Below, one piece after another: positions 10,561 to 39,772 of a DNA stretch of 39,772 bases; the stretch's first letter is position 1; each line of letters starts with the position of its first letter. Position numbers and translations under genes: made by a program. Below the pieces are notes generated by a model. It was given only the letters and a program-made list of their open reading frames with translations. It had not been told where the DNA came from and did no database searches. The stretch is taken from IMG/VR virus record IMGVR_UViG_3300017917_001531, positions 1 to 39,772 of that record. One strand, written 5' to 3'. This DNA is from a virus.

Positions 10561-10875
10561 TTAAGTCCCATAAGTGTCGTCTATAGCACCAGAACGGAAA
10601 CCAGTTTTAGCTGGCACATGGTGTGGTGCTGATGGTGGATTCTTCTTGCGTTCTTGTGCACGCTTCTTTATAAGTTCAGCTGTTTCTTTTTTCTTTTGGT
10701 CAGAAGTTACAATACGTGCATTCTTATAACCTTTTTCATGAGCCATCTTTAGAAAGTCATCTGCCAAACCCTCTTTAACACAAGAATCTTCAGCACATGG
10801 TGCTGTTCCAGGTTTACGTTTGTAACCTTTCCAGCAGTTACACGCTTCATTTAACCACTGTTTAAAAAGCAACAT
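10561..10875 (-). CDS. Small basic candidate capsid-targeted protein
   Basis: 104 residues from ATG 10875, chosen because AAGGA precedes it at good spacing and the protein then begins MLLFKQWLNEACN, the shared capsid-targeting-like pattern. A frame to 10935 exists without a ribosome site. Four cysteines (NACNCWKGY and CAEDSC) in the first 35 residues could bind a metal or form disulfides. The rest is helical and Lys-rich, with a Pro/Gly tail; CVKEGLADDFLKMAHEKGYKNARIV suggests a small folded segment. It overlaps the upstream gene by 14 bases. Function unknown; packaging is inferred. Confidence 0.6.
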   Translation of the reverse strand: MLLFKQWLNEACNCWKGYKRKPGTAPCAEDSCVKEGLADDFLKMAHEKGYKNARIVTSDQKKKETAELIKKRAQERKKNPPSAPHHVPAKTGFRSGAIDDTYGT

Positions 10876-13030
10876 TTTGAGATCCTTGTGTGTATTTTGA
10901 ATGTGATAATCTAGCCTTTTCCATCTTGCGAACACGTGGTGCCAATCTCATAGCAATTCTGCCGATAGCTGCTTTACGTGTTTCGATCATTCTTTCGATA
11001 CGTTCTTTTTCGCCAACAGAAAGTTTTGATGGATCTCTACCACGTAGCAATCTTTTCTTCATTAACTTAACAGCTAAACGACGTGAACGTTTGTTAATAG
11101 TTTTTGTATCTGAATAACGTTTAATTGCAATCTGTGCTGCACGTTCACGTTTGGCTTTCGTGCGACGAATTCTGCTAACTGCTTTCATACGTTCTGCACG
11201 AGAAAGAACTTCTAATAATGCAGACTCTTGTATTTTCTTTTCTTCTTCTTCGTCTGGTTCTAGTTCTTCGCCAGTTTCAGAATCAACTATACCCAACTCA
11301 TTTTCATCATATGTATCGATATAGTCATCATCTGATAACTGATCTGCATACATTTCAATTTCGTCATCACTCATTTCTGGAATATCGTAATCTTCTTTTT
11401 CTACTTCTTCTTTGGTTAAGTTTTCTTTTTCTTTTTTGTGCTGATCTGCTAATGCTTGTTTTTCTTTACCTTGCTGCAACATTAGACGAGCACGTTCTTC
11501 TGATGCTTTACGCTTCTCGCCTTCTTTACGTAGGGCATCAGCTAGCTTTAAGCTAGCAGAAACTGCCTCTGTCATACCGCTCATTTTATCAATAAATGAC
11601 TTGGCTAATTTTTTCTGTTTGGTTGTATGTTCTGGGCTAGTTTGAATATGCTGGGCTGTGTTCTCATGACCAGCCTCATCGCCATATGATGTCATATCTA
11701 AGTGTGGTGGTTTCTTTTGTTCACCAAGATGATATTTAACTTTGCGACGACGTAGGTTATCTTGTTTACCTGGGGCAACTAAAGTATGACCAACTTCTGA
11801 ATGATCTTTTTGTTTTGTATTGTGGTCATGATCATGATCTGATTCTGTATCTTTTTTATTGTCATTATCAGATTCTTGATGCTCACACATTTTATTTAAT
11901 TTTTTATAGTCATTAAAACGAAGAACATCTTTAGCAATATTATATTTACTAGATTTATTAACCTTGTCTTCTTTTAATTTTGTTGGCTTTAATGTAGCAT
12001 CATAGTTAATTCCTACATTTGTAGCAAGAGCCAACATCTTGTCTAAGATAGACAACGCTTCAGGATTTAATGCCTTTGTACGAACTTTACGTAGTGCCTG
12101 ATTGACTAGATTCTCTGCATTAGATGATGCTTCGGCATTATCAATACCAAGCATAGTTGCTATCATTCTAGCTACTTTAATCTTGTCATTGACCTTTAAC
12201 GTCTTGTCTGTTAATTCTTCGTTCATATTTTCTTTTTCTTCTGTAGGAATAACATCATGAATCCACTTAGATGTCAATTGGTTATTTGAATGCTCTTTTA
12301 GTAAAAGATGATTTGAACCACGTTTTATAATAGTAAATCTTTCGCCGTTGCTTTCTACTATATCACCTTCGTTGAAAATTTCTCCACGAAAATACTGTTC
12401 ACGCAATTCATCCTTTACTAAAACAACTTGTTCTTTAATAGGTTCTAATCCCATTCCCTCACGAATATCATTCATTAAACGACGACCATCTATTTCACGA
12501 ACAGCAGATGGCAATCCTTTTTTAAATTCTGCGTAGTTACCTTTGACTGCGAGTGCTCTCATCTTAGATGCAGACATACCTGTAGCATCATCAGCGTCGG
12601 GGTCACGCTCTCCTGCAGAAATAACATCAATAGTATCAAAATTAAATTCTTTACCATTATACTGGTTTAATAATCGTTTAAATTCTGGCACACGATCACT
12701 GCCAGCAACCATAATAATGTTTTTATATTTCTTGTTTAGTTCTTTAGCTGCTTCTATAAAAGTTCGAACATGATCGTTTGCGGCAGCAAAGTGAGTACCC
12801 TTAAACATCAAGTTAAGATACTTGACTTTCTTGTCTACACTTAATGGGTTCTTTTTAGCGTCTTGTGAGCGAGATGCATAGATGACGTGATCTGCAGATC
12901 TCTGCTTGGCTAATTTTTTGACAGCTTTGACCAGTAACTCATGTCCTGTAGTCGGAGGATTAAATCTTCCGAATGCCATTACTACAGATTTAGCTGGTAG
13001 CTCTTTGATTAGTTGTTTATAGCGTTTCAT
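10862..13030 (-). CDS. HIGH-family nucleotidyltransferase fused to a long charged tail and basic C-terminal domain
   Basis: About 722 residues from ATG 13030; ATG 13039 adds MGQ, and neither has a clear ribosome site. After MKRYKQLIKELP, residues about 17-180 form a cytidylyltransferase/NMN-adenylyltransferase-like domain: GRFNPPTTGH contains the T/HxGH nucleotide-binding motif, and GMSASKMR matches the ISSTxxR-type C-terminal motif. The middle is Lys/Glu/Asp-rich and low in complexity. The last 110 residues are a strongly basic helical domain (LSRAERMKAVSRIRRTKAKRER onward) known to me as a separate small protein in related phages, so this is probably a fusion. The substrate is not determinable by eye; NMN or a sugar/lipid phosphate is possible. 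Confidence 0.75.
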   Translation of the reverse strand: MKRYKQLIKELPAKSVVMAFGRFNPPTTGHELLVKAVKKLAKQRSADHVIYASRSQDAKKNPLSVDKKVKYLNLMFKGTHFAAANDHVRTFIEAAKELNKKYKNIIMVAGSDRVPEFKRLLNQYNGKEFNFDTIDVISAGERDPDADDATGMSASKMRALAVKGNYAEFKKGLPSAVREIDGRRLMNDIREGMGLEPIKEQVVLVKDELREQYFRGEIFNEGDIVESNGERFTIIKRGSNHLLLKEHSNNQLTSKWIHDVIPTEEKENMNEELTDKTLKVNDKIKVARMIATMLGIDNAEASSNAENLVNQALRKVRTKALNPEALSILDKMLALATNVGINYDATLKPTKLKEDKVNKSSKYNIAKDVLRFNDYKKLNKMCEHQESDNDNKKDTESDHDHDHNTKQKDHSEVGHTLVAPGKQDNLRRRKVKYHLGEQKKPPHLDMTSYGDEAGHENTAQHIQTSPEHTTKQKKLAKSFIDKMSGMTEAVSASLKLADALRKEGEKRKASEERARLMLQQGKEKQALADQHKKEKENLTKEEVEKEDYDIPEMSDDEIEMYADQLSDDDYIDTYDENELGIVDSETGEELEPDEEEEKKIQESALLEVLSRAERMKAVSRIRRTKAKRERAAQIAIKRYSDTKTINKRSRRLAVKLMKKRLLRGRDPSKLSVGEKERIERMIETRKAAIGRIAMRLAPRVRKMEKARLSHSKYTQGSQNVAF

Positions 13031-13060
13031 TTGACCCATTAATTTATGTTATTGCATTGT

Positions 13061-16905: not shown

Positions 16906-17622
16906 TTATTTAGGACGTCGTGATGCTCTGATTAGTTTAGAATACTTACGATCCCACTTCATTACCTGATGTAGAAGTTTAGGTATAGCGTGGTTGTTTC
17001 TATAATCGTAGTTAAATGTACGAAGAATATAGTGTAAGGTTTTTGAGTCACGGCAGTATCTAGATCTTGCGATAAGATCTGATACTGGGATAGATGGTTT
17101 GTTTATTTTATAGTCGAGGTAAACACAATGAGCGTATGCTTGTATCTCATCGAACTCGGAAAGATAACGTCTTTCGGCGTCTTTTTTAGCAGACCCTACC
17201 TTTTTGTAAGGCATAACATAACGACTAGACTCGTCATATCTTCTGTCATATTGCATAAAGTGGATCAATTCATGCATCTCAACTTGGATTAGTTTAAATT
17301 TAAATCTTTCCCAAGTATCTCTGTCAAAGGAGAATGATTGAAAGTTATCTGTATAAATCTGCAAAATACACTGACGTGTTTCTGCGTTATATTCTCCACC
17401 AATTGCTATGTACTTCTGATAGACTTTGGCTTTAGACTTTTCTTTATGCCACTCTATCTTAGTACGCCATTTTTTAAAGTAATTAGCAAGACCGACCTCG
17501 TCATTAACATAATTGTCTAGGTCTCGCCATACTTTTGCTGGGATGAATGTGGCTCTAAATGGACGCTCTTTAAAATTAAGCATATCCATCCAGTCGAAAT
17601 TAGCGTTTTCTAGGAACTGCAT
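16906..17622 (-). CDS. HExxH zinc metallopeptidase-like protein
   Basis: 238 residues. HELIH at 117-121 is a zinc metallopeptidase signature, and SEFDEIQAYAH (Glu 156/159) lies about 36 residues downstream, where gluzincins place their third zinc ligand. The surroundings are charged and aromatic (RFKFKLIQVEMHELIHFMQYDRRYD). There is no signal peptide, so it should act in the cytoplasm or in the virion. A processing, host-directed or tail-associated role is possible; substrate unknown. It begins 24 bases after the P-loop kinase gene. The basic C-terminus (KWDRKYSKLIRASRRPK) may bind nucleic acid. Confidence 0.7.
   Translation of the reverse strand: MQFLENANFDWMDMLNFKERPFRATFIPAKVWRDLDNYVNDEVGLANYFKKWRTKIEWHKEKSKAKVYQKYIAIGGEYNAETRQCILQIYTDNFQSFSFDRDTWERFKFKLIQVEMHELIHFMQYDRRYDESSRYVMPYKKVGSAKKDAERRYLSEFDEIQAYAHCVYLDYKINKPSIPVSDLIARSRYCRDSKTLHYILRTFNYDYRNNHAIPKLLHQVMKWDRKYSKLIRASRRPK
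16907..16914 (-). promoter_or_regulatory. Late-promoter-like motif CCTAAATA
   Basis: CCTAAATA on the minus strand, 31 bases upstream of the start at 16876 and overlapping the last codons of the metallopeptidase gene. An AT-rich inverted repeat (ATTAGTAA with TTACTAAT, 16888-16906) lies between the motif and the start and would form a leader hairpin. Confidence 0.4.
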
Positions 17623-17646: not shown

Positions 17647-18270
17647 TCACTGGACTAGCTGCTTCTCCAGAAATGCAAGAACTTTCCCCTGCTCCTCTAA
17701 GTTAGTATTATTAAACTCAGTAATATAGGGCATCAGTTCAAAATTTGATAGTAAGTTACTATATTTAGTTTCTCTACCTTTTAGGAAGGTCTCAGACTGG
17801 TCTGAGCCACGATCCTTGTAACGCTGCTCGAGGATAGATTTCGGAGCCTTTAGGAAGATTACATGTAAGTCCGTATTCTCTAACCCCATAACGAACTCTA
17901 AGAAAGACTGATTAAAGATTCTGTCTCCTTCGAACAGGATATTAGACTGGCATTCTTTAACAAATTCTTGGGCGATTGGCTGGACTGCCATAGAAAGACG
18001 ATCGGTTCCAGCAAAGGTTTCACCGTCTTCATACTTACCCAAGATGTACAAGTCTAGCTCTTTACAATACAGTGCGGGTAACATTTTCTTTGGTTCTACT
18101 TTTTCCCATGTATGGTTCTCCATAAACTTACGGAAAAGAGTAGTCTTACCTGTTCCTGGACTACCACCAACAGCTACAATCTTTTTGATAGTAGGGATAA
18201 CTGCTTTCTGCTGATCTGCTTTAATAACCTTAATAAAGATTTGATCTTGCACACCAAACGTATCATGCAT
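17647..18270 (-). CDS. P-loop kinase-like protein
   Basis: 207 residues from ATG 18270, chosen for AAGGA upstream; a frame to 18360 overlaps the preceding gene heavily. Walker A is GGSPGTGKTT (about 35-44). NILFEGDRIF acts like a Walker B/Asp region, and KAPKSILEQRYKDRG resembles the Arg-rich LID of small-molecule and nucleotide kinases. The length suits a nucleoside/nucleotide kinase-like enzyme. The substrate cannot be fixed by eye. It lies downstream of the hypermodification cluster, so a modified-base kinase is conceivable but unsupported. It overlaps the upstream stop by eight bases. Confidence 0.7.
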   Translation of the reverse strand: MHDTFGVQDQIFIKVIKADQQKAVIPTIKKIVAVGGSPGTGKTTLFRKFMENHTWEKVEPKKMLPALYCKELDLYILGKYEDGETFAGTDRLSMAVQPIAQEFVKECQSNILFEGDRIFNQSFLEFVMGLENTDLHVIFLKAPKSILEQRYKDRGSDQSETFLKGRETKYSNLLSNFELMPYITEFNNTNLEEQGKVLAFLEKQLVQ

Positions 18271-18718
18271 TTTTAATTTCCTTAATAAATTCTTTAAGTT
18301 CTTGCTCAGTAAAACACCAGACTCTTCCAATGAAATGATGCACATCTGTATCTTTGTCATGCTTTTTAGTGAAGGTAGTTTTCTTCACTATATCTCTTGC
18401 AACATTTTTAGCCAAATTTTCTTTAATCTCATTAGCGTAGTCTGGAGCAACTTCTTTTAACTTCATTAACTCTTGCTCTTGAACTTTGTGATCTACTGTA
18501 ACACGATTCATAATCCATTTCTCAAGCAAGTCTTCAATACTATCATTACTTAAAGTATCAATACTTGAAATACCGCTAGTGGTTATTGTGTTTAGTGTGC
18601 CATACATAGTTGATCCAGTAGAAACAGTGACAGCACCAGATGCCGTCATGATTTTCAACTCTTCGTCTTGCATAGTAAATTCTCCAATAGGCATATCTAA
18701 AATATCATCAGGGTTCAT
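18263..18718 (-). CDS. Conserved T4-like phage protein, unknown function
   Basis: 151 residues. The N-terminal part is acidic (MNPDDILDMPIGEFTMQDEE), followed by a Ser/Thr-rich stretch (ASGAVTVSTGSTMYGTLNTIT) and a helical C-terminal half (MKLKEVAPDYANEIKENL, FTEQELKEFIKEI). I recognise no function. It overlaps the amino:DNA-transferase-like gene upstream by four bases (ATGA) and the kinase gene downstream, so it is translated with them and may be a small partner protein. Confidence 0.65.
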   Translation of the reverse strand: MNPDDILDMPIGEFTMQDEELKIMTASGAVTVSTGSTMYGTLNTITTSGISSIDTLSNDSIEDLLEKWIMNRVTVDHKVQEQELMKLKEVAPDYANEIKENLAKNVARDIVKKTTFTKKHDKDTDVHHFIGRVWCFTEQELKEFIKEIKNA

Positions 18719-19734
18719 GTAAACATCTCCAATCCCATTAGGGGTTTTTCTTCATCATCAAACATCCATTCTAAATTCTCTATCTTACCAGTGTTAACAA
18801 AAGAAGAAAATCTATCTTTGTCTATACCCCTATCATGATCTAGTCGCAAGTCGATTGTTTCGTTTCTGGCTTGCCACAGCACATCCCAATCAATACCGTA
18901 CCATCCATCACTCTGAGCCATTTTAATTTCTTCAGCCTGACGATCGAGGTAGTAACCAAGATAGCGACCATGATGTTCTCTAAATATTTTTTTATAAGAA
19001 CACAAACATGTTTCCATAGTAAAGAAATCAACTTGATCTTTTAGTCTGGGAAACCTGTCTTTTGTTTCTTCCAAAATGGCGCTTGCTTCTCGCTCAAGAT
19101 CCAAATACTCTCTTGTACTAAGTTTTCTATCATAATCGTCATCTTTGCCGAGGGCAAGAAGTAATCCATTACGATGAGAACGGGAACCATCAAAATCGCT
19201 AAGCATGAGAGAAGTAGGTTCAACCCGAATGCCAGCAGTATGGCGCAGATGCTGAATATAAAACCAAGTGGAGTAACGACCAAATTTATGAAGGCTAGTT
19301 TTAATGCTCGTCCACAGATTGTCAAAGTTCTCTTTTTCGTTGGTTCCATAATAACTCTCCAAAGTTTCACGTTGTGATCTATTTCCAATAAATTTTTGGT
19401 ATGATTCAAACATAGCAGGCAGATGCCCCTTGTTCCATTTTGTATCTGTTTGATAACGAAGACGTTTGTAGTTAGTAGCATTCCACTGCGTAGTTCTATC
19501 TACTGTAGCCAATTCAAAGTCTGGAAATTCATTCATAAGAACCCAAGCTGTTGGTAACTGATACGTATTACCATAAAGCCAAGCTAACCAAAGACGTTGT
19601 TCATCATTGTGCTCATATCTTTTATGCAGATAGTTGGTACACCAAACTGCTGGATCACAATCATCATATTGTAACGACCATGCATACCAACGAATAAATG
19701 CTTCTCTGCGATTTTGTTTTAAACGATAATCCAT
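18715..19734 (-). CDS. Amino:DNA-transferase / thymine-pyrophosphorylase-like protein of DNA hypermodification
   Basis: 339 residues. The sequence, with RWYAWSLQYDDCDPAVWCTNYL, RLWLAWLYGNTYQLPTAWV, KFGRYSTWFYIQHLRHTAG and GSRSHRNGLLLALGKDD, resembles the helical family described bioinformatically as amino:DNA transferases or alpha-glutamyl/putrescinyl-thymine pyrophosphorylases. These are thought to replace an activated group on a 5-hydroxymethylated pyrimidine with an amine or amino acid. The assignment is from memory of the motif pattern. It ends EKPLMGLEMFT, possibly a clamp-binding tail. Its start overlaps the upstream GNAT-like stop by one base, within an unbroken run with the amidotransferase and TET/JBP-like genes. 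Confidence 0.6.
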   Translation of the reverse strand: MDYRLKQNRREAFIRWYAWSLQYDDCDPAVWCTNYLHKRYEHNDEQRLWLAWLYGNTYQLPTAWVLMNEFPDFELATVDRTTQWNATNYKRLRYQTDTKWNKGHLPAMFESYQKFIGNRSQRETLESYYGTNEKENFDNLWTSIKTSLHKFGRYSTWFYIQHLRHTAGIRVEPTSLMLSDFDGSRSHRNGLLLALGKDDDYDRKLSTREYLDLEREASAILEETKDRFPRLKDQVDFFTMETCLCSYKKIFREHHGRYLGYYLDRQAEEIKMAQSDGWYGIDWDVLWQARNETIDLRLDHDRGIDKDRFSSFVNTGKIENLEWMFDDEEKPLMGLEMFT

Positions 19735-20375
19735 TATACTAAAAATTCTTCAAGTGATGGTTGTTCCATCAGTGCGTCACGTAACCATGCAGAACCAACT
19801 GCATCAATAGCAGCTTGGGTCTTAGCTTTCTTTTTAGCACCCCACTTGTATGATTCAAGAGATTCAGTACGGAATTGCTCACGTGCTTTGTAAGGTGGTA
19901 ATGCTTGCAGTGGATTTACGATGGCGTTGTTTCTGTAGGCAATTTGCTCGGCTCTCGTAGGAAATAGTGGTTGGTCACTTCTAAGAGAGCCTGTTGGATC
20001 GACTGCCCAGAAGATGAGACCATTTTTATTGTGCCACGTAACGGAAGTTGGAGTACATGAGATTTTAAGTCGTTGAGACTTTCTTTCTTCGACTGCGTAT
20101 TTGATCCATGCATCCCAGCATTTACTTGCATATCCATTTCCTTCTTTACCTTCAAGTGTAACAATTTCATATAGGTTAGCATAACCATCACGATTATGTG
20201 TCGCAAAGATTAGCGAAACAATCTCACCATTATCTTCATAAGCCATTGGTGGTGCTTTGTCATAGTTGTGAAAGCGATACCACAATGAATGTGCAGCCGA
20301 CAAGAACTTTGTGTTCTTGCCAGCTGGACTGTTTTTAATTAACTCTTCAACTCTTGTTGAATTAACGAATAGCAT
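19734..20375 (-). CDS. GNAT-like acyltransferase in the DNA hypermodification cluster
   Basis: 213 residues from ATG 20375; an ATG at 20399 is possible, and the ribosome site is weak for both. ANLYEIVTLEGKEGNGYASKCWDAWIKYAVEE carries the beta4/alpha3 pattern of GNAT enzymes, in which a Gly-x-Gly-x-Ala/Ser loop binds the acyl-CoA pyrophosphate; SVTWHNKNGLIFW would be the following strand and helix. GNATs transfer acyl groups to amines. Next to genes predicted to place an amine on DNA, it may acylate the modified base. The C-terminus MEQPSLEEFLV resembles the polymerase and dioxygenase tails. It overlaps the amidotransferase stop by 14 bases. Confidence 0.65.
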   Translation of the reverse strand: MLFVNSTRVEELIKNSPAGKNTKFLSAAHSLWYRFHNYDKAPPMAYEDNGEIVSLIFATHNRDGYANLYEIVTLEGKEGNGYASKCWDAWIKYAVEERKSQRLKISCTPTSVTWHNKNGLIFWAVDPTGSLRSDQPLFPTRAEQIAYRNNAIVNPLQALPPYKAREQFRTESLESYKWGAKKKAKTQAAIDAVGSAWLRDALMEQPSLEEFLV

Positions 20376-21066
20376 GCTGATAATCCACGGCATCTGCAAC
20401 TTCGACTTTCTCGATCATCATTGAGAGATACTCATCAAATGTTACATAGTGATTCATAACAACTTCAATAGGCATACCACCAACGTGTGCACGACTAGCA
20501 ATATCCCCAGTAGAAGTAATTATACACCCATTTAGGATGGAAGACAAATATAATGGTCGTTTTCCATTACGATAGAAACGAATCTTGCGATCTCTATGCA
20601 ACTCTACCACGCCCATGGACATATGAGCGAACTCACGTAGTGGGTCATTAGAATGTAAGACTAACTCGCTATCATTCTTTGTAATGCAATCATAACCATA
20701 TTTGTCTTTCCAATTCTCTGGCAGTTCTTGTGTGATCACTCCATTATGTACTATTGATTTTTCAGTACGATTCATTGGCTGATTATACTCAAGATCGCTG
20801 GTTGAATAACGACAGTGTCCGATTAAATAAAGATTACCATCATCAGCAACCATACTTGATAGGTTGTCATCGTGTAGATGTTTATCAACAAACTGGTCAG
20901 CTGGAATTGGCTCTTTGATAGTTTCAATACCAGATGACCATTTCGGTAAGAATGATATACCTGTAGCATGCATACCACGAATCTTAGACTCGTGGAATAC
21001 ACGACGGATCATAGCAAAGTCCTGCTTAGATGGTTGTTGCAGGATAGAACCAATTACGGCGCACAT
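20362..21066 (-). CDS. Class II glutamine amidotransferase domain protein
   Basis: 234 residues. Class II (Ntn-type) amidotransferases release ammonia from glutamine with an N-terminal cysteine; here Cys 2 follows the start Met (MCAVIGSILQ), as required. Other family residues are present: GMHATGISF (31-39), HCRYST with Arg 86 for the glutamine carboxylate, and HNG (107-109) forming the oxyanion hole. No synthetase domain is fused, so the ammonia must go to a separate protein. The next genes (GNAT-like and amino:DNA-transferase-like) make a DNA-base amidation or amination role likely. It overlaps the dioxygenase stop by one base. Confidence 0.8.
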   Translation of the reverse strand: MCAVIGSILQQPSKQDFAMIRRVFHESKIRGMHATGISFLPKWSSGIETIKEPIPADQFVDKHLHDDNLSSMVADDGNLYLIGHCRYSTSDLEYNQPMNRTEKSIVHNGVITQELPENWKDKYGYDCITKNDSELVLHSNDPLREFAHMSMGVVELHRDRKIRFYRNGKRPLYLSSILNGCIITSTGDIASRAHVGGMPIEVVMNHYVTFDEYLSMMIEKVEVADAVDYQHAIR

Positions 21067-22430
21067 TATCCAAAAAATTCCTCTAGTGAAGTATTGGCTG
21101 CTTCTGGATGCATCTTTAGTAATTCTTCACGACCAACTTTTGCCTCACAGTAATCATACCACTCTTGTTCATCCCACATCCCAGGACTTACGCCATTCCA
21201 CAGATGACGATCTGTACCATCTTCATGTTTATGTCCTGGATGGTTCTTATTAAGTCTACGTGACTCAACATATTCACGACGGCAGTCTTCGTATGCTTTG
21301 CTACCAAGCTGTAACATGTTCTCACGGAAATAACAAACCAAGGACACACGCTCTGCTTCTTCGTCAAGAAGTTCGATCGGAGTATTACCGTGCATAACTT
21401 CGTGATTGTTAATCAACAGCAAGTCTCCAGGACGTACATTAACAGCAACACGATACTCTGGTGCGATCAGATAACCACCCTTGTAGTTACCATTGTTAGA
21501 TAGAACTAACAAGTTAGACAAACCAGTGTCCAAGTCACCAGCATCGTAGTGTGCTGCAGTACGGAATGTTTTATTCACAGTGATTGTAGTGAATGGGGTT
21601 CCAGGAACTAGGAATGCTGGATCAAGTTTCTTTGCAGCTTCCATCTGATTGTTAAAACGCCATGGAAGTAATTGTTTAAAACCTTTAGCCAAGTGTTGTA
21701 AGAATGGATAAGCCATCTTGAACTTGTCTGGGTTGTTAGCCGTATAAGATGTCGCACGACCATAAGGAATACGTGGATAACGATCGTACCAACCAGCGAT
21801 ACCTGACATGACACCATTTGCGTATGTAGTTTGGCAGATGTATTTCTGAACCATACGACGTGTTTCTTCTCGCTGATCTTCTGGTGACATACTTTTTGTT
21901 CGAGCAACCCAACGTTCGAAGTCGAACTCATCTTCTTTAACAGCCTGAATCGACCAGACGTTGTTCTTGTTAGATGGTTGTGCAGGTTTGTTCTTATGCG
22001 CAGCTTTGATCTCTTCAATAGGATCTGCACCGAATAGGTTTGACTTAGGATTGCTGAAGTAGTCAATCACATCAAACTCATAGTCTGTAACCCACTCACG
22101 ATTACCAAGTTTACCTTCACGTGGACCAGCAGCAATACCACGATTCTGTGTTTCAGTTGCTGCTTCTCTTAGCCCGAGGTATGCTTGCTCTTGCATTTCT
22201 TTTGAGAAGAAGTTCTTACGAAACTTAAAGATAATTTTCTTTTCGTCCATCCCCTTTTCGCAGGTATTACATTCATTAGTGCAAGCAACCTGAGTACCCA
22301 GATCACAATCTGGTGGTGCATATACATCGCAGTCTTCTTCAACTAGGATATCATAGTGTCTCTCATCAACAAACTGCCCCAATAAATGCGAAGCATCATA
22401 TTTTTGTTTTGCTACAATTACCTTTACCAT
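21066..22430 (-). CDS. TET/JBP-type 2OG-Fe(II) dioxygenase, probable DNA base hydroxylase
   Basis: 454 residues. The C-terminal catalytic part shows TFRTAAHYDAGD (Fe ligands His 294, Asp 296), a GNYKGGYLI strand, VRPGDLLLINNHEVMHGNT (distal His 347) and ERVSLVCYFREN (Arg 361 or 369 for 2-oxoglutarate). The long AHxDxGD...GL...GG pattern fits TET/JBP enzymes, which hydroxylate the 5-methyl group of thymine or 5-methylcytosine in DNA. Residues 34-57 hold five cysteines (Cys 34, 42, 50, 54, 57), a possible metal site. The protein ends ANTSLEEFFG, almost the polymerase tail. It lies ten bases after helicase gp41 and starts the modification cluster. Confidence 0.75.
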   Translation of the reverse strand: MVKVIVAKQKYDASHLLGQFVDERHYDILVEEDCDVYAPPDCDLGTQVACTNECNTCEKGMDEKKIIFKFRKNFFSKEMQEQAYLGLREAATETQNRGIAAGPREGKLGNREWVTDYEFDVIDYFSNPKSNLFGADPIEEIKAAHKNKPAQPSNKNNVWSIQAVKEDEFDFERWVARTKSMSPEDQREETRRMVQKYICQTTYANGVMSGIAGWYDRYPRIPYGRATSYTANNPDKFKMAYPFLQHLAKGFKQLLPWRFNNQMEAAKKLDPAFLVPGTPFTTITVNKTFRTAAHYDAGDLDTGLSNLLVLSNNGNYKGGYLIAPEYRVAVNVRPGDLLLINNHEVMHGNTPIELLDEEAERVSLVCYFRENMLQLGSKAYEDCRREYVESRRLNKNHPGHKHEDGTDRHLWNGVSPGMWDEQEWYDYCEAKVGREELLKMHPEAANTSLEEFFG

Positions 22431-25430: not shown

Positions 25431-27920
25431 TTATCCAAAGAAATCTTCCAGAGAAGTTTCTTCTTTTGTTTTCCATCCAAGAGGTTCAATTACAATCTGT
25501 AGGGCATCTTCGAATACCTTTTCAAATTGTTTATCATAATCTATGTATGCTTCTAATTTAAGTTCTTTTGGAAGATGCTGAGCGAATGCTATAACATCTT
25601 CTTGGATAGGATTAGGTGTCAGTAAATAGACAAACTTAATCTTATCACCATCACGAATTGCCTGATACTTTTTATCTAACCCAAGACGTTTTAGGTGGTG
25701 GTTATATAGCAAAGCACCACGAACATGAATCGGTGTTCCCTTTGCATAGATGGGAGAACCAGCGTACTGCTTCATACCGTTAACACCACGAGGGAATGCG
25801 ATATCATGAACAGGCATACTATCAAACTCACGTTTGAAGTCTAGAACATATTTGTGCAAATCCTTTTCAGTGCCATGCAAAATCACCTGTAAAGAGTCAT
25901 GAAGTTTGTCACGAATGACTGCAGGTGTAGATGACTTGACCATCTCAAGACCCATCACCTTTACCTTAGGTTTGGCAAACTGTACACCCTCAGAGTTGTG
26001 CACGTTGATAATGTATCGTTTCTTGGCAGTCCAAATTGCTTTGTCAGCCAACACCTCACGCTTCATCTGCATCTTTTGACTATATGCATTCATATAGTCT
26101 GCTAGTTCCTGATAACCTTGGTCAATAAATGGTTGGAAAACTTCCTCGCACATCTTGTCCATAGTTTTGATCTTTTGTTCTGTAGTTTTTCCTACACAAA
26201 CTTTTTCGATCAATTCTTCTAGCGTCAAGTAGATTGAATCTGTATCAATAGCAACTACAAAGTCTTTGTCTTCAGACTTAAGAGTTTTGTTTAACATGGC
26301 ATTCAATTTGTTTGCCATCCAACGAATTGACAGTTGTCCCGAAAGTGTAATTCCTTCAGCCATACGGATATCAAAGTAACGGAAATATTGGTTACCCATC
26401 GCACCATAAGCAGAGTTTAATGCAATCTTCATAGCCATCTGCAAGTTGTTGAGACGAGAGATATCTTTCAACAAGTGTTTTTGTGACTTGTCGTGTTCAT
26501 ATTGCTGCTGAATCTTAAGCATCTGTTTCTTAAACTTAGAACGATTAGCATACATCTGTTCCATCAACTCAGGCATGAATCCTTTGACATCTCTACGATA
26601 ACACCAACCATTTGCAGATAGACAAAGGTCTCTGCGTTTAGCATATGTTGTATCAATCTCTTTGTTTAATAATTTATCAACAGTACAAGAAATCTTCTCG
26701 TGTGTCAATGTTTCTGGGGAAATATTGTACTGCATAATCAAGTGGGGATATAGCGAGTTCAAGTCAAACGATGCCATCCACTTGTGCTGTCCAACCAATG
26801 GGTCTTTAACGAACGCACCTTCAAATTGTGCATCTTTACCACCATTGGATACCTTCATTGGAATCACAATACCCTTTTTACGCAGGTGGTTGTAGATAAT
26901 AGTATCCCACATACGAACCTGCGAGTATACATCTTCAAAGTTAATCTTAGCATTGTATGCCATAGTAAGATGCAGTTCAATCAAACGCATCTTATCTTCT
27001 AACTTGTCAACCAGTTCAACGTCATGAATGTTATACTCAACAAAATTGTCCCAGTAATTGGTATAGAAATCTTTAAAGTCAGTTCCTGGATTATCTTTCT
27101 TTTTGTCGCCTAGTTCCTGCTCAGCGATATAGTCCAGTCTGTAGGATTCTTGTTTGGTGTAAGTATACTTTTTGTACAACTCAAGATAGTCAAGCTGACT
27201 AATACCAGAAATATCATAGTGGAGTTCTTCATTACCTTTAATGAATGTATTACGTTCGTTGATTAAACCCCATGGACTAATCTTTTTAGCAAATGATTCG
27301 CCAAGTTCACGTGACAGCCTCTTGATAAGATAGGGCATGTCAAAGAAGTCAGTGTTCCAACCAGTGATAACATCTGGATAGTTTTGCTGCCACCAAATGA
27401 TAAACTCTTTCAACAGCTGTTGTTCATCACGACAGTTGACGTATGTAACATCATCACGTTGGGTGTCATATGGTTTAACACCCCAAGTGATAACCCTTTT
27501 ACTCTGTAAATCTTTGACAGTGATCAGTAGAATCTCTTCGTTGGCGCTACGAATATCTGGGAAACCATACTCAGTTGAAGTTTCGATGTCAATAGTAAAC
27601 ACACGGATCTGTTCCATGTCCCAGTTTACATCGTCTTCATAGGTGTCACTGATGTATTGATATGCGTAATTGGTGTTACCGTAAATAGCAAACCCAGAAA
27701 CATCCTCGTACTTTTTAACAAACTCACGAGTCTCTTTAATAGTTCCAGGTTTCATCTCGTCAACATACGTACCTTCCAAAGTCTGCCATTTAGATTGAGA
27801 CTTAGAAGTGACAAAAAGCGTAGGGTAGAAATCTACCTTACGCATATATCGTCTACCGTTTTCGTAACCGATGACGAACATCTTGTCGCCATATGGTGCT
27901 ACACTAGTATAAAATTCCAT
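25431..27920 (-). CDS. 43: Family B DNA polymerase, T4 gp43 type
   Basis: 829 residues. Replicative polymerase with 3'-5' proofreading. Exonuclease motif I is FTIDIETSTEYG (about 108-119), with later exonuclease residues in GWNTDFFDMPYL and YNIHDVELV. Polymerase motif A is FDLNSLYPHL, motif B KIALNSAYGAMG and motif C AIDTDSIYL. The thumb ends in KEETSLEDFFG, a hydrophobic/acidic C-terminus of the type that binds sliding clamp gp45. It is a single uninterrupted frame, without the intein or split seen in some T4-like polymerases. It overlaps the exonuclease gene by one base. Confidence 0.96.
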   Translation of the reverse strand: MEFYTSVAPYGDKMFVIGYENGRRYMRKVDFYPTLFVTSKSQSKWQTLEGTYVDEMKPGTIKETREFVKKYEDVSGFAIYGNTNYAYQYISDTYEDDVNWDMEQIRVFTIDIETSTEYGFPDIRSANEEILLITVKDLQSKRVITWGVKPYDTQRDDVTYVNCRDEQQLLKEFIIWWQQNYPDVITGWNTDFFDMPYLIKRLSRELGESFAKKISPWGLINERNTFIKGNEELHYDISGISQLDYLELYKKYTYTKQESYRLDYIAEQELGDKKKDNPGTDFKDFYTNYWDNFVEYNIHDVELVDKLEDKMRLIELHLTMAYNAKINFEDVYSQVRMWDTIIYNHLRKKGIVIPMKVSNGGKDAQFEGAFVKDPLVGQHKWMASFDLNSLYPHLIMQYNISPETLTHEKISCTVDKLLNKEIDTTYAKRRDLCLSANGWCYRRDVKGFMPELMEQMYANRSKFKKQMLKIQQQYEHDKSQKHLLKDISRLNNLQMAMKIALNSAYGAMGNQYFRYFDIRMAEGITLSGQLSIRWMANKLNAMLNKTLKSEDKDFVVAIDTDSIYLTLEELIEKVCVGKTTEQKIKTMDKMCEEVFQPFIDQGYQELADYMNAYSQKMQMKREVLADKAIWTAKKRYIINVHNSEGVQFAKPKVKVMGLEMVKSSTPAVIRDKLHDSLQVILHGTEKDLHKYVLDFKREFDSMPVHDIAFPRGVNGMKQYAGSPIYAKGTPIHVRGALLYNHHLKRLGLDKKYQAIRDGDKIKFVYLLTPNPIQEDVIAFAQHLPKELKLEAYIDYDKQFEKVFEDALQIVIEPLGWKTKEETSLEDFFG

Positions 27921-29829: not shown

Positions 29830-31118
29830 TTGATATCTTTATCTTTGTCTGCAATATTTTTGTCTTCACGAATCTCTACAAAAATCGGCAAGAACAAAGA
29901 TTCTTCTCCAGCTTTGTTTTTGATTCTAGAATTATACTTCACTGCAACGATTTTGTCAATTAGTTTTTCTTTCCAAAGAGTTTTGCGATGATCATCGTTG
30001 AAACCAGATCCAACATTAACTTTAACTACACCATCTGCAGACTCGCAAATAATTGCACCTAGCATACCTGCATACTTGCCAGTACCTTCTTCAACTGCAA
30101 CAATCTTCAAGTCGCATTCTAGTTCACCTTTGAATTTGATCTGATGTTTAGCACGTTTGTCTTCCCAGATACCACGTTTGTCCTTAAGGATAATACCTTC
30201 TTCACCTCGCTGCAGGAATTCCTCGAACAGTGCCTTCGCTGTGTCATAGTTTTCTACTTCCCAGCTTCTCACAATAGAAACTTTCTCAGGTGAGTGTTTT
30301 TCAATTAGTGCAGTTAGAGAATCGAAACGCTTACCATAAGCTACAGGACATTCACCATCTTCAAAATAAATGTATGGAATAATGTCCCAGATGGTGGCAC
30401 GAACCTTACGTGCTTCCAAGTCAGAGATTGTACCCTTGTTGGCTTTGTTCAGAATACCGTTACCAGTCTGACGATCGAGCACAACACCCTTGTCGTTGAC
30501 CAGCAACTCTCCATCAAACACACAATCTACATCTCCAGCCATCTTGATAAAGTCAGCATCAAGATTTCCTAGCAGTTGGATTTCTTTGCCATTGCGAGAG
30601 CGGTATTCCACTTTGCCATTCCGAACGATGGCGTTGAACCGCATTCCATCCATTTTGAGTTGCACTAGTGCTGGGAATTGTACTTTGTCTACTAGTTTCT
30701 GTTCGAAGCCACTGCACAGCATCACTGGATACTCTCGGATCAAACCAGACCAAACCACGTTTGCGGTGCTTACCTGTACTCCACATTTCAAATCTTTCTG
30801 GACAACACGTTCAATAACTTTTGCGTCGTCAATCGATAGAGATGACAAAAGCATTCGAAGATATTCGATTGCTGCATTACCTGTAACAGTACGAGAGGAT
30901 AGATCATATAATCCATTTAGCGCATTCTCCAATGATGTAGTATGTTTGTCTTGAGTATAAGACGGGATTTTACGAATGTAAAAGTTCGTAAATGGGTCGA
31001 GAGCCAACCGCACAACTTCCCGTAGGGTTTCGTTATCGCTATGACTAGAAAGTTGCTCGATTTTGAAATTACGAGATGCGTTTGCGGCAAGACTCTCGAA
31101 AAACTTATTGATGTTCAT
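29826..31118 (-). CDS. 30: ATP-dependent DNA ligase, T4 gp30 type
   Basis: 430 residues; seals nicks in replication and repair. Motif I is LVQLKMDGMR with the adenylated Lys at 155. Further motifs: YRSRNGKEI, CVFDGELLV (motif III), EEGIILKD (IV) and HQIKFKGELECDLKIV (V). The N-terminal helical domain (1-140) and the C-terminal OB region (about 345-430, KYAGMLGAIICES...VGSGFNDDHRKTLW) are present. It is slightly shorter than T4 gp30 (487). It sits between the SWIM-finger gene and the kinase-like gene, overlapping both. Confidence 0.93.
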   Translation of the reverse strand: MNINKFFESLAANASRNFKIEQLSSHSDNETLREVVRLALDPFTNFYIRKIPSYTQDKHTTSLENALNGLYDLSSRTVTGNAAIEYLRMLLSSLSIDDAKVIERVVQKDLKCGVQVSTANVVWSGLIREYPVMLCSGFEQKLVDKVQFPALVQLKMDGMRFNAIVRNGKVEYRSRNGKEIQLLGNLDADFIKMAGDVDCVFDGELLVNDKGVVLDRQTGNGILNKANKGTISDLEARKVRATIWDIIPYIYFEDGECPVAYGKRFDSLTALIEKHSPEKVSIVRSWEVENYDTAKALFEEFLQRGEEGIILKDKRGIWEDKRAKHQIKFKGELECDLKIVAVEEGTGKYAGMLGAIICESADGVVKVNVGSGFNDDHRKTLWKEKLIDKIVAVKYNSRIKNKAGEESLFLPIFVEIREDKNIADKDKDIK

Positions 31119-35467: not shown

Positions 35468-36427
35468 TTACTTGAATTGACATTGTGCCATAATCTCAGT
35501 CAATGCTGCCATTATATTTAGTTCTTGGTCAGCCACGAATGCTGCTTTATACTGATAGTCAGCCAAGAACAAAATTAGCTGTGGAATACTAGTAGGTTGG
35601 ACAGATGTATTAGCATGCTCATAGAATTGTCTAAACAACGTAGCAGCATCAGCATCAGAGTTTTTAGCGACCCAAGAACGAACACCAGAAAAGTCTTTGT
35701 CTTTCATCAGCTTCATAAGACTTTTAAAAGATTCTTCTGACATGTTGACAAGAATACCAGAGTCGATCTTACCACTAACGGAATATCTCTGAAGTTCGTT
35801 TAGGATGCGACGATAGTCTGGAAAGTGTTTGGTGATAAGTTCTGCTACAACTTTAGAATCAAACTCAATACCTTCTGCAGTCAGAATATCTACAGCACGA
35901 CGATAGAATGAAGCAGCGATCTTAGGTTTATTAGAAACATCAATCTTAAAGTCGATGTTAGCGCAACGACTACGAAGTGGTTCAAGAATCTTGTTTTTGA
36001 AATTACATGTAAAGATAAATCTACAGTTAGCAGAAAAGTCTTCCATGAATGCACGAAGGGCAGGTTGCACTGACTCAGCATTCATATAGTCTGCCTCATC
36101 AATAATAACAACCTTTTTTGCATCAGTAAGAGAAACAGTTGATGCAAAAGAAGTGATTAGAGTTCGGAGAGTTTCGATCTTACGACCTTCATCCGATCCG
36201 TTAATTACTAGAAACTCTGCACCAATTTCATTGCACAGTGCTTTAGCTACTGTTGTTTTACCAACACCAGCAGTACCAGAAAGCAAGAAGTGGGGTAGTT
36301 CTCCTTGTGCCACATATTGTTTAAATACTTGCTTTACACTTTCTGGTAGCACACAGTCATCGATAGTTTTTGGGCGATACTTTTCTACCCAAAGAAATTG
36401 GTCATCACGTGATTCAATCATTTTCAT
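35468..36427 (-). CDS. 44: Clamp loader large subunit, T4 gp44 type AAA+ ATPase
   Basis: 319 residues, identical in length to T4 gp44. Opens and loads gp45 using ATP. Walker A GTAGVGKTT is at 51-59, Walker B IIDEAD near 108-113, sensor 1 RFIFTCNFKNK, and the SRC motif with the arginine finger in LEPLRSRC. WVEKYRPKTIDDCVLP is the standard clamp-loader opening. Its start overlaps the stop of the preceding gene as ATGA. Confidence 0.96.
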   Translation of the reverse strand: MKMIESRDDQFLWVEKYRPKTIDDCVLPESVKQVFKQYVAQGELPHFLLSGTAGVGKTTVAKALCNEIGAEFLVINGSDEGRKIETLRTLITSFASTVSLTDAKKVVIIDEADYMNAESVQPALRAFMEDFSANCRFIFTCNFKNKILEPLRSRCANIDFKIDVSNKPKIAASFYRRAVDILTAEGIEFDSKVVAELITKHFPDYRRILNELQRYSVSGKIDSGILVNMSEESFKSLMKLMKDKDFSGVRSWVAKNSDADAATLFRQFYEHANTSVQPTSIPQLILFLADYQYKAAFVADQELNIMAALTEIMAQCQFK

Positions 36428-36777: not shown

Positions 36778-37437
36778 TTAAAACTCAAAAGTAGAGTCAG
36801 CTTCAACTGCTACATAATAAACCAAATCACTGGCTGTTGATTTAAAACGAGAGATTTTCTTACTAGAGATACTAACATCGTAGTCTCCAGGAAGCATTTT
36901 TAGGTTTTCAACTTTCAAGTTGACTTTGAATGTCTTGTCAGTCGCTCCAACTGGTTCGCTAAAAGAATTACCAGTGGCATTCTTTTTATCACCAACAACT
37001 GCAGTGATAGTCTTACCATCACCTACGATGGAAACATCTGGACTACGTAGCACAGAAGCAGTCTTTTGAATCATGTTCAACATTTGAGAGGTAATATTGA
37101 AATTCACCTCAGCTTCTGGGAATGTGATTGCTTTTTGGGGTGCAGTGAGGACAGATGCGTCTGCAGCGAAGAATTTAATCTTCATACTACCCTGACTAAT
37201 ACTGACAAATTTATCTTGGAATTCTAACTCTGGATCTTCAAACAGAGACATAGCACCAAGAAATTCGTTTAGATCATAGATACCAAAGTCAGGGAATGTT
37301 TCGCTAACAGTGGCATCAGACATTACGTTTTTCTGTGCGCTAATGGTTGAGAGTTTGTTGCCAGATTTAAGTAGCAAGTTGGAATTGATTCCAGCAAAAT
37401 TCTTAAAAAGTGCAACAGTTTCTTTACTAAGTTTCAT
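36778..37437 (-). CDS. 45: Sliding clamp, T4 gp45 type
   Basis: 219 residues, close to T4 gp45 (228). The trimeric clamp holds polymerase on DNA and is needed for late transcription. MKLSKETVALFKNFAGINSNLLLKSG is the characteristic opening, and FGIYDLNEFLGAMSLF and the C-terminal VYYVAVEADSTFEF fit the family. AAGGAG precedes the ATG, and a TTGTCT-N17-CATAAT promoter lies 40 bases upstream. It starts the clamp-clamp loader-regA operon. Confidence 0.93.
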   Translation of the reverse strand: MKLSKETVALFKNFAGINSNLLLKSGNKLSTISAQKNVMSDATVSETFPDFGIYDLNEFLGAMSLFEDPELEFQDKFVSISQGSMKIKFFAADASVLTAPQKAITFPEAEVNFNITSQMLNMIQKTASVLRSPDVSIVGDGKTITAVVGDKKNATGNSFSEPVGATDKTFKVNLKVENLKMLPGDYDVSISSKKISRFKSTASDLVYYVAVEADSTFEF

Positions 37438-38982: not shown

Positions 38983-39772
38983 TTATTTTCCAATCATGAG
39001 TCCAGTCATGTTGCTGGGAACAACAATTGTCTGAACCTTACCATTCTTAATACCTTCAGAGATATTCAAAGATGCTTGCGCATTCATAAATGCGATAGAA
39101 CTAGCAGAGTTATTTGCTAGAGCAGCCATACGCTCTGCTTCTTTCTTGGCGGTCTGCACTTCAACTTCTTTTTGCTTGTATTCGTTCTTGGCACGAACAA
39201 GAGCATTAGCAGATTCAACAACGCTATCAGCAGGAACAACGTTACGAATCAGCACTTGAGAGATGGTGATAGTACCATCAAGTTTTTCTTCAGCAAGATT
39301 GCGGGTGATTTCCTCACGAATCTGGTTTTCCATATTCTCACGATTGTCTGCCATGTCAAGTGCTTCATACTTGCGTGCTGCTTTGTAGATGGCATTACGT
39401 GCGTTCTGAACGATGTAGTTATACATCACATACGTGTCACCCTTAAAGTCGGCGTGGAAACTACGATTCTTGGTGCTGTACAACTCAGCAACTTGCTGGG
39501 GGTTGATGTTATAAACAACCACAGCATCCAAGTCTTTCATAGTGCTGTTGTCTTTAGCAACTGGGGTTATGTCATTCAAGACAACGTTAACATCCTTAAC
39601 AGGGAATGTAAGAACATCACCAATCAGTGTTTGATTGAACGTTCCAGGCAGCAACTCTCCAGGTTTAACTTGTTTGTCGAAACCGACACGCACACCAACT
39701 TCACCAGTTTCAATACGAGTACAACCAGTGGCGAAAACAGCCAACATAGCAATAGCAATAACGCTTTTCTTC
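38983..39772 (-). CDS. SPFH/band-7 (prohibitin-like) lipoprotein, 5' end cut by window edge
   Basis: At least 262 residues are visible. The frame stays open to the window edge, and the first codons read KKSVIAIAMLAVFATGC, a lipoprotein signal with lipobox FATGC, so the true start is probably just outside; an internal ATG at 39747 would cut the signal. TRIETGEVGVRVGFDKQVKPGELLPG and later KAARKYEALDMADNRENMENQIREEITRNLA are typical of SPFH domains, followed by an Ala/Glu-rich coiled coil (EYKQKEVEVQTAKKEAERMAAL). SPFH proteins form membrane-bound cage assemblies. Phage members are known in aquatic T4-like phages; function unknown. Confidence 0.88.
   Translation of the reverse strand, partial: KKSVIAIAMLAVFATGCTRIETGEVGVRVGFDKQVKPGELLPGTFNQTLIGDVLTFPVKDVNVVLNDITPVAKDNSTMKDLDAVVVYNINPQQVAELYSTKNRSFHADFKGDTYVMYNYIVQNARNAIYKAARKYEALDMADNRENMENQIREEITRNLAEEKLDGTITISQVLIRNVVPADSVVESANALVRAKNEYKQKEVEVQTAKKEAERMAALANNSASSIAFMNAQASLNISEGIKNGKVQTIVVPSNMTGLMIGK

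Follow-up and report, generated by a model that had tools for sequence, protein, structure and literature searches.

What reaction do a TET/JBP dioxygenase, a glutamine amidotransferase, a GNAT-like protein and an amino:DNA-transferase-like protein serve together when their genes overlap on one strand of a viral genome? We addressed this question for an IMG/VR fragment of 39.8 kb from a T4-related phage (IMGVR_UViG_3300017917_001531; the whole stretch of 39,772 nt is here called the window), in which an earlier inspection of the letters, the sequence-only reading, had seen a base-hypermodification cluster. Our analysis points, with a probability of roughly 0.7, to a post-replicative pathway of thymine hypermodification, in which the dioxygenase (TET), the acyltransferase (GNAT) and the amino acid:DNA transferase (ADDT) would be tethered by C-terminal tails that resemble the tail of the DNA polymerase.

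Enzymes of the cassette

The four open reading frames (ORFs) lie at 18715-22430, and neighbours overlap by 1-38 nt. These coordinates, the single strand and the overlaps agree with the sequence-only reading, and Pfam placed each ORF in the family that it had guessed. We moved the start of GNAT from the TTG at 20399 to the ATG at 20375 and found that the cassette reaches down to 17647, which adds a 151-aa protein and a kinase (KIN). The cassette genes, and the replication genes and peptides for which coordinates are given below, are all encoded on the minus strand.

The first gene (21066..22430, 454 aa) encodes a TET/JBP-family Fe(II)/2-oxoglutarate (2OG) dioxygenase, which we propose to be a thymine hydroxylase acting on DNA. 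It matched PF12851 (Tet_JBP) with 94.4 bits (curated cut-off: 34.9), and the HxD...H...R iron/2OG motifs recognised earlier are intact, the metal triad H294, D296 and H347 and the 2OG-binding R361 being invariant in 27 sequences. The best PDB match of the profile of these 27 sequences was human TET2 (E 1.1e-6). With an AlphaFold model (mean pLDDT 80.5) as Foldseek query against the PDB, the top 26 matches were all TET-family DNA enzymes (NgTet1, CcTet, CMD1, TET2; E ~1e-9 to 1e-7); AlkB-type and other hydroxylases ranked below them, the next match having an E of 1.9e-5. Profile and predicted fold support a grouping with the TET/JBP DNA dioxygenases and not with protein or small-molecule hydroxylases. 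No TET was found in bacterial genome contigs. Database labels for these enzymes vary: the TETs of named phages carry the annotation 'SNF2 DNA repair protein', and PHROG 6059, labelled queuine tRNA-ribosyltransferase, contains TET/JBP-like oxygenases.

The helical protein previously likened to amino:DNA transferases (18715..19734, 339 aa) is an aGPT-Pplase-like ADDT, with 83.6 bits for PF18724 against a curated cut-off of 26.2. Its profile had no meaningful match in the PDB. PF18724 ADDTs are also present in ViI, M6 and phiW-14, experimentally hypermodified phages for which hypermodification of thymidine is established (PMC6449724). Two genes downstream of ADDT lies a P-loop kinase (17647..18270, with the ATG at 18270 as the probable start), a proposed 5-hydroxymethyldeoxyuridine (5-hmdU) DNA kinase. 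It matched PF18751 (P-loop Nucleotide Kinase3), as did 19 of the 19 members of its alignment, and its Walker A motif is intact. It shares phrog_800 with M6 gp054, which Pfam assigns to PF18748 (5-hmdU DNA kinase), and profile alignment of the two by hhalign gave an E of 2.4e-7 and a probability of 93%. PHROG 800 contains 5-hmdU DNA kinases, and its label 'terminase small subunit' looks like a misannotation. The sequence-only reading had found no 5-hydroxymethyluracil (5hmU) kinase in the window, a statement that this M6-related enzyme overturns. It had also considered chemistry unlike the characterised pathways; this fails for the kinase and ADDT, which belong to a known route, but stands for the TET first step and the amidotransferase.

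The second gene (20362..21066, 234 aa) encodes a stand-alone class II (N-terminal nucleophile, Ntn; Cys2) glutamine amidotransferase domain (GAT), the proposed ammonia donor. It scored 35.9 bits for GATase_6 (cut-off: 27), and the intact active site with Cys 2 read from the letters was confirmed by the invariance of the catalytic residues Cys2, R86, H107-N108-G109 and D132 in 15 sequences. The GAT profile had no PDB match at E 0.01. GNAT (19734..20375, 213 aa, corrected start), an N-acyltransferase proposed to tailor the new amine, exceeded the cut-off for Acetyltransf_1 (23.0 versus 20.7 bits). The best AF2 model had a mean pLDDT of 89.2 (the other four: 58-66) and matched the GNAT-fold proteins Ard1, PA4794 and SpeG in Foldseek (E ~6e-6), so that the GNAT-like segment of the sequence-only reading is upheld by family score and predicted fold. 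No GNAT was detected by tblastn in named phages.

Between ADDT and the kinase lies a conserved 151-aa protein (18263..18718), an optional member found in many cassettes but not all, for which neither an above-cut-off Pfam match nor a PHROG match was found. In many relatives the kinase is followed by a conserved protein with a HELIH zinc-peptidase-like motif (16906-17622 in the window), again without an above-cut-off Pfam match.

Conservation of the cassette

Two TET scans and one amidotransferase scan of viral contigs yielded 160 distinct metagenomic viral contigs. The order TET-GAT-GNAT-ADDT-KIN was found on 71 of the 160. TET and KIN occurred together on 90, and 89 of these 90 also carried GAT and ADDT. 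Six contigs had the alternative order GAT-GNAT-ADDT-TET-KIN, and L133, L134, L138 and L140 had the usual order with other genes around it, no kinase being labelled on L140. Conservation across ~160 contigs places the cassette far beyond chance. It behaves as one pathway unit, and since its genes were co-inherited and re-ordered across lineages, a single pathway is supported.

The cassette also varies. In variant B, GAT is kept and GNAT is swapped for an Amidoligase_2-type protein, a second GNAT and, mostly, a ParB-like protein; the Amidoligase_2 match was above the Pfam cut-off only in L011, and the ParB_N match was weak. A radical S-adenosylmethionine (SAM) enzyme or a 2OG-FeII_Oxy_5 protein is inserted in the cassettes of some relatives. 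On three contigs (L042 3532-4200, L049 4072-5079, L081 4380-5387) a TET of the window subfamily is followed by a 335-aa protein in place of the amidotransferase/ADDT set; this protein had no Pfam match and, judged by eye, was taken for a glycosyltransferase. On L139 (4621-5918) a frameshift or sequencing error divides the TET ORF into two parts, and the remaining cassette is intact.

C-terminal peptides

The replication genes of the window comprise a family B DNA polymerase, DnaB, RecA/UvsX-like proteins, a gp44-type clamp loader and a gp45-type clamp. The polymerase (25431..27920) is 35-49% identical over the matched stretches to those of ViI, phiW-14, DLP6, Cr30, C48C1 and Melnitz. The sliding clamp (36778..37437) matched PF09116 with 37.4 bits (cut-off: 25), and the large subunit of the clamp loader (35468..36427) matched PF21328 (Gp44_lid) with 55.3 bits. 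The polymerase ends in TSLEDFFG (25434..25457), which served as the reference for a clamp-binding-type peptide. TET ends in TSLEEFFG (21069..21092), GNAT in PSLEEFLV (19737..19760) and ADDT in LMGLEMFT (18718..18741), all polymerase-like and proposed as clamp tethers, that of ADDT as a weaker one.

Among the relatives, 64/66 polymerases, 127/128 TETs, 79/82 GNATs and 80/82 ADDTs had the motif within their last nine residues. It was absent from the last nine residues of the amidotransferases (0/109), the kinases (0/64), the 151-aa proteins (0/50) and the downstream proteins (0/48), and in shuffled C-termini it occurred at most eight times per family. We also ranked all predicted proteins of a genome by the similarity of their last 12 residues to those of their own polymerase. 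In the window and in four large relatives (224-265 proteins), TET took first place and GNAT second place. T4 was used as the tether control because in most relatives the gp55 of the window lineage does not carry the motif at its C-terminus. In T4, gp55 and gp33 ranked 1 and 2 of 256, and the C-termini of both are clamp-binding and similar to that of gp43 (PMC2988020, PMC7892883).

The ranking picked out DNA-modifying enzymes in named phages as well. The ViI polymerase ends in RVNLLSMMGKKG; the ViI ADDT (STSVNLMSLLKR) ranked 2nd and the 5-hmdU DNA kinase 2 (PF18747) 3rd. ADDT was 2nd in phiW-14, a TET-associated glycosyltransferase (TAGT)-like protein 1st in Cr30 and TET 1st in DLP6. A Mom-family protein (MZ577098 69571-70380) was 1st in Melnitz, followed by TET, and a D12 N6-adenine methyltransferase (OQ984149 33480-34364) 1st in C48C1, where TET was 3rd. 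The version of the peptide tracks the polymerase: LEDFFG in the window lineage, LGAFF/LGSFF in phiW-14, NLLSMM/NLMSLL in ViI and DLSSLF/DLSKLF in Cr30. A combined p of 2.5e-7 for the ranking pattern is rough and post hoc, the enzymes having been picked after the pattern was noticed. The ADDT of M6 and both TET and ADDT of mycobacteriophage Hydro end differently from the LExFF-type peptide; we assumed that M6 and Hydro have no T4-type clamp.

TET, GNAT and ADDT thus combine a polymerase-like C-terminus with an encoded gp45-type clamp, which on the criterion of sequence makes them candidate clients of a T4-type sliding clamp. The C-terminus of DnaB (SFDGFKF) fell outside the motif, ranked low and was left aside as a tether. 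In ViI (NC_015296), two unlabelled ORFs at 30355-30567 and 87432-88676 end in SDKVNLLSLMRK and SVNLLDRLKKPE, which are similar to the end of the ViI polymerase, and are candidate clamp clients. A literature search found no paper describing a polymerase-matching tail rule, subscription papers being outside its reach.

Target base

In five large relatives (98-171 kb), PF00303 (the thymidylate-synthase-type dUMP hydroxymethylase) was not found and ThyX was present in all five. Neither these relatives nor DLP6, Cr30 and C48C1 yielded a C5-cytosine methyltransferase (PF00145), the relatives searched being possibly incomplete and absence hence weak evidence. Because the large relatives have ThyX and neither PF00303 nor PF00145, thymine in DNA is the likely substrate of TET.

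Discussion

In the proposed pathway, TET would hydroxylate the 5-methyl group of thymines in freshly replicated DNA, giving 5hmU, as its family and the genome content suggest. The PF18751 kinase, by its homology to the 5-hmdU DNA kinase of M6, would then phosphorylate the hydroxyl of 5hmU to create a leaving group, and ADDT, going by its family, would swap this phosphate for a nitrogen nucleophile. The further steps are speculative: GAT would most likely provide the nitrogen to the ADDT step as glutamine-derived ammonia, in the manner of PurF, and GNAT might acylate the new amine to something like 5-(acylaminomethyl)uracil. In PurF, ammonia displaces pyrophosphate, and displacement of phosphate by ammonia requires no carboxylate activation. 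Since the cassette of the window has no carboxyl-activating enzyme, ammonia supply as nucleophile fits better than carboxyl amidation. Acetyltransferases are reportedly among the thymidine tailoring enzymes that Lee et al. described in 2022. The C-terminal peptides, for which the sequence evidence is strong, may hold TET, GNAT and ADDT at the replication fork by mimicking the clamp-binding peptide of the polymerase; the kinase and the amidotransferase, which do not carry the peptide, may ride on the other enzymes. The likely benefit would be protection of the phage genome against restriction.

Several observations weigh against this pathway, in addition to the possible incompleteness of the searched relatives. 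The best Pfam family of the kinase is PF18751 and not PF18748 or PF18747, the named 5-hmdU DNA kinases, and a PF18751 search of ViI, M6 and phiW-14 gave no match. The roles as ammonia donor and in acylation are speculative and drawn by analogy only. The peptide of ADDT is weaker than the others, ranking 7th-27th in the four large relatives. The T4 alpha-glucosyltransferase (alpha-GT) has no polymerase-like C-terminal peptide (rank 36) but binds gp45 (PMC13216743); the peptide is therefore not required for clamp binding. TET and ADDT of Cr30 also lack it, and given these exceptions the polymerase-tail rule is not universal.

The alternative that survives best, although we consider it the less probable course, is a different tailoring, in which ADDT transfers an amino acid as a whole (glutamine, glutamate or glycine), whose nitrogen GNAT caps, and GAT works on this residue in the manner of an Ntn glutaminase or a gamma-glutamyl hydrolase, or else delivers ammonia to a different enzyme. 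The ADDTs of characterised phages are said to install amino acids (work of Lee et al. in 2018 and 2022), and hydrolase activity is known among stand-alone class II domains, EgtC being an example. Cassette variant B fits such a scheme as well, since it retains GAT and gains the Amidoligase_2-type protein, with the restriction to L011 given above. Yet the cassette of the window has no pyridoxal phosphate (PLP) or radical SAM enzyme for amino-acid processing, a radical SAM enzyme having been identified only in a relative.

It is unlikely, in our view, that the C-terminal peptides of TET, GNAT and ADDT are something other than clamp tethers, reflecting another shared partner or compositional convergence. 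Clamp binding by the peptide-less alpha-GT and the modifying enzymes of Cr30 that do without the peptide would fit this explanation. It does not account for a peptide that changes with the polymerase of each phage, nor for the T4 ranking, which retrieved exactly the two documented clamp binders gp55 and gp33, and the combined p value, rough and post hoc as it is, also speaks against it.

A cytosine version of the pathway seems slightly less likely again. Here TET would oxidise 5-methylcytosine (5mC) made by a methyltransferase of the host or an unseen one of the phage, and the kinase and ADDT would elaborate 5-hydroxymethylcytosine. Most TETs of known structure do have 5mC as substrate, and the contrast case, Methylophilales phage Melnitz, has a C5-methyltransferase in the same neighbourhood as a TET and a related kinase. 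Against this stand the missing PF00145 in the five large relatives, DLP6, Cr30 and C48C1, and the membership of ADDT in the family of 5hmdU-based phages. Moreover, Melnitz has an unassigned 427-aa protein between TET and kinase, which we considered as a hidden ADDT, an idea that was rejected. A purely metabolic role for the amidotransferase and GNAT, as neighbours with no part in DNA modification, is very improbable: their families are not specific to DNA modification, but the two genes stay with TET, ADDT and KIN despite re-ordering and changed genomic neighbourhoods, and GNAT carries the polymerase-like peptide in 79 of 82 sequences.

Parts of the thymine pathway have counterparts in known systems. 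In the actinophage ParB-TET-ADDT-kinase clusters (mycobacteriophage Hydro gp1-4; Rhodococcus phage Tonitrus, PMC11955845), TET, ADDT/aGPT-Pplase2 and a P-loop kinase adjoin as they do in the window; as annotated, these clusters have no amidotransferase or GNAT, and TET and ADDT of Hydro differ from those of the window in their C-terminal ending. ViI, M6 and phiW-14 share the ADDT family with the window, M6 gp054 belongs to the PHROG of the window kinase, and the ADDTs of ViI and phiW-14 bear the C-terminal peptide of their own polymerase, as that of the window does. In these three phages the pathway is reported or believed to begin with 5hmdU synthesised ahead of replication (PMC6449724, PMC5977210), whereas in the window lineage, in whose large relatives PF00303 was not found, TET would take the place of this step. 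The coupling of T4 alpha-GT to gp45 (PMC13216743, PMC6024577) is a precedent for the clamp-bound DNA-modifying enzymes proposed here, although alpha-GT belongs to another enzyme class and, unlike TET, GNAT and ADDT, does not carry the peptide. The TET of DLP6 is of the same subfamily as the window TET (46.7% identity), and the TET and TAGT of this phage end in polymerase-like peptides, as the window TET does; in contrast to the window, DLP6 has a TAGT, and neither a PF18751 kinase nor an ADDT was found in it.

Elsewhere in the window we noted a 725-aa protein (10862-13039) whose N-terminal domain resembles cytidylyltransferases and a phage-encoded SPFH/Band 7 protein (38983-39747).

The combination of TET, ADDT and kinase is thus already known from actinophages, and what appears to be new here is the amidotransferase/GNAT stage and the predicted replisome tether. 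We give even odds to a broader proposition: that phage base-modifying enzymes (TET, ADDT, GNAT, glycosyltransferase, N6-adenine methyltransferase, Mom and 5-hmdU kinase) are generally sliding-clamp clients, having acquired the peptide of their own polymerase in phages with a T4-type clamp, and that the window lineage makes a TET-started thymine derivative, dependent on glutamine ammonia and an acyltransferase, that is not yet described. If the pathway is correct, hypermodified thymine would arise from ordinary thymine in DNA and not from a modified nucleotide pool, and it would include a glutamine-dependent step that the actinophage clusters examined lack. The tether would explain how bases could be altered soon after replication, close behind the fork, and its prediction extends to several experimentally studied phages. 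A polymerase-matching tail may also serve as a cheap test for DNA-modifying or replisome-coupled proteins in unannotated genomes of T4-like phages.

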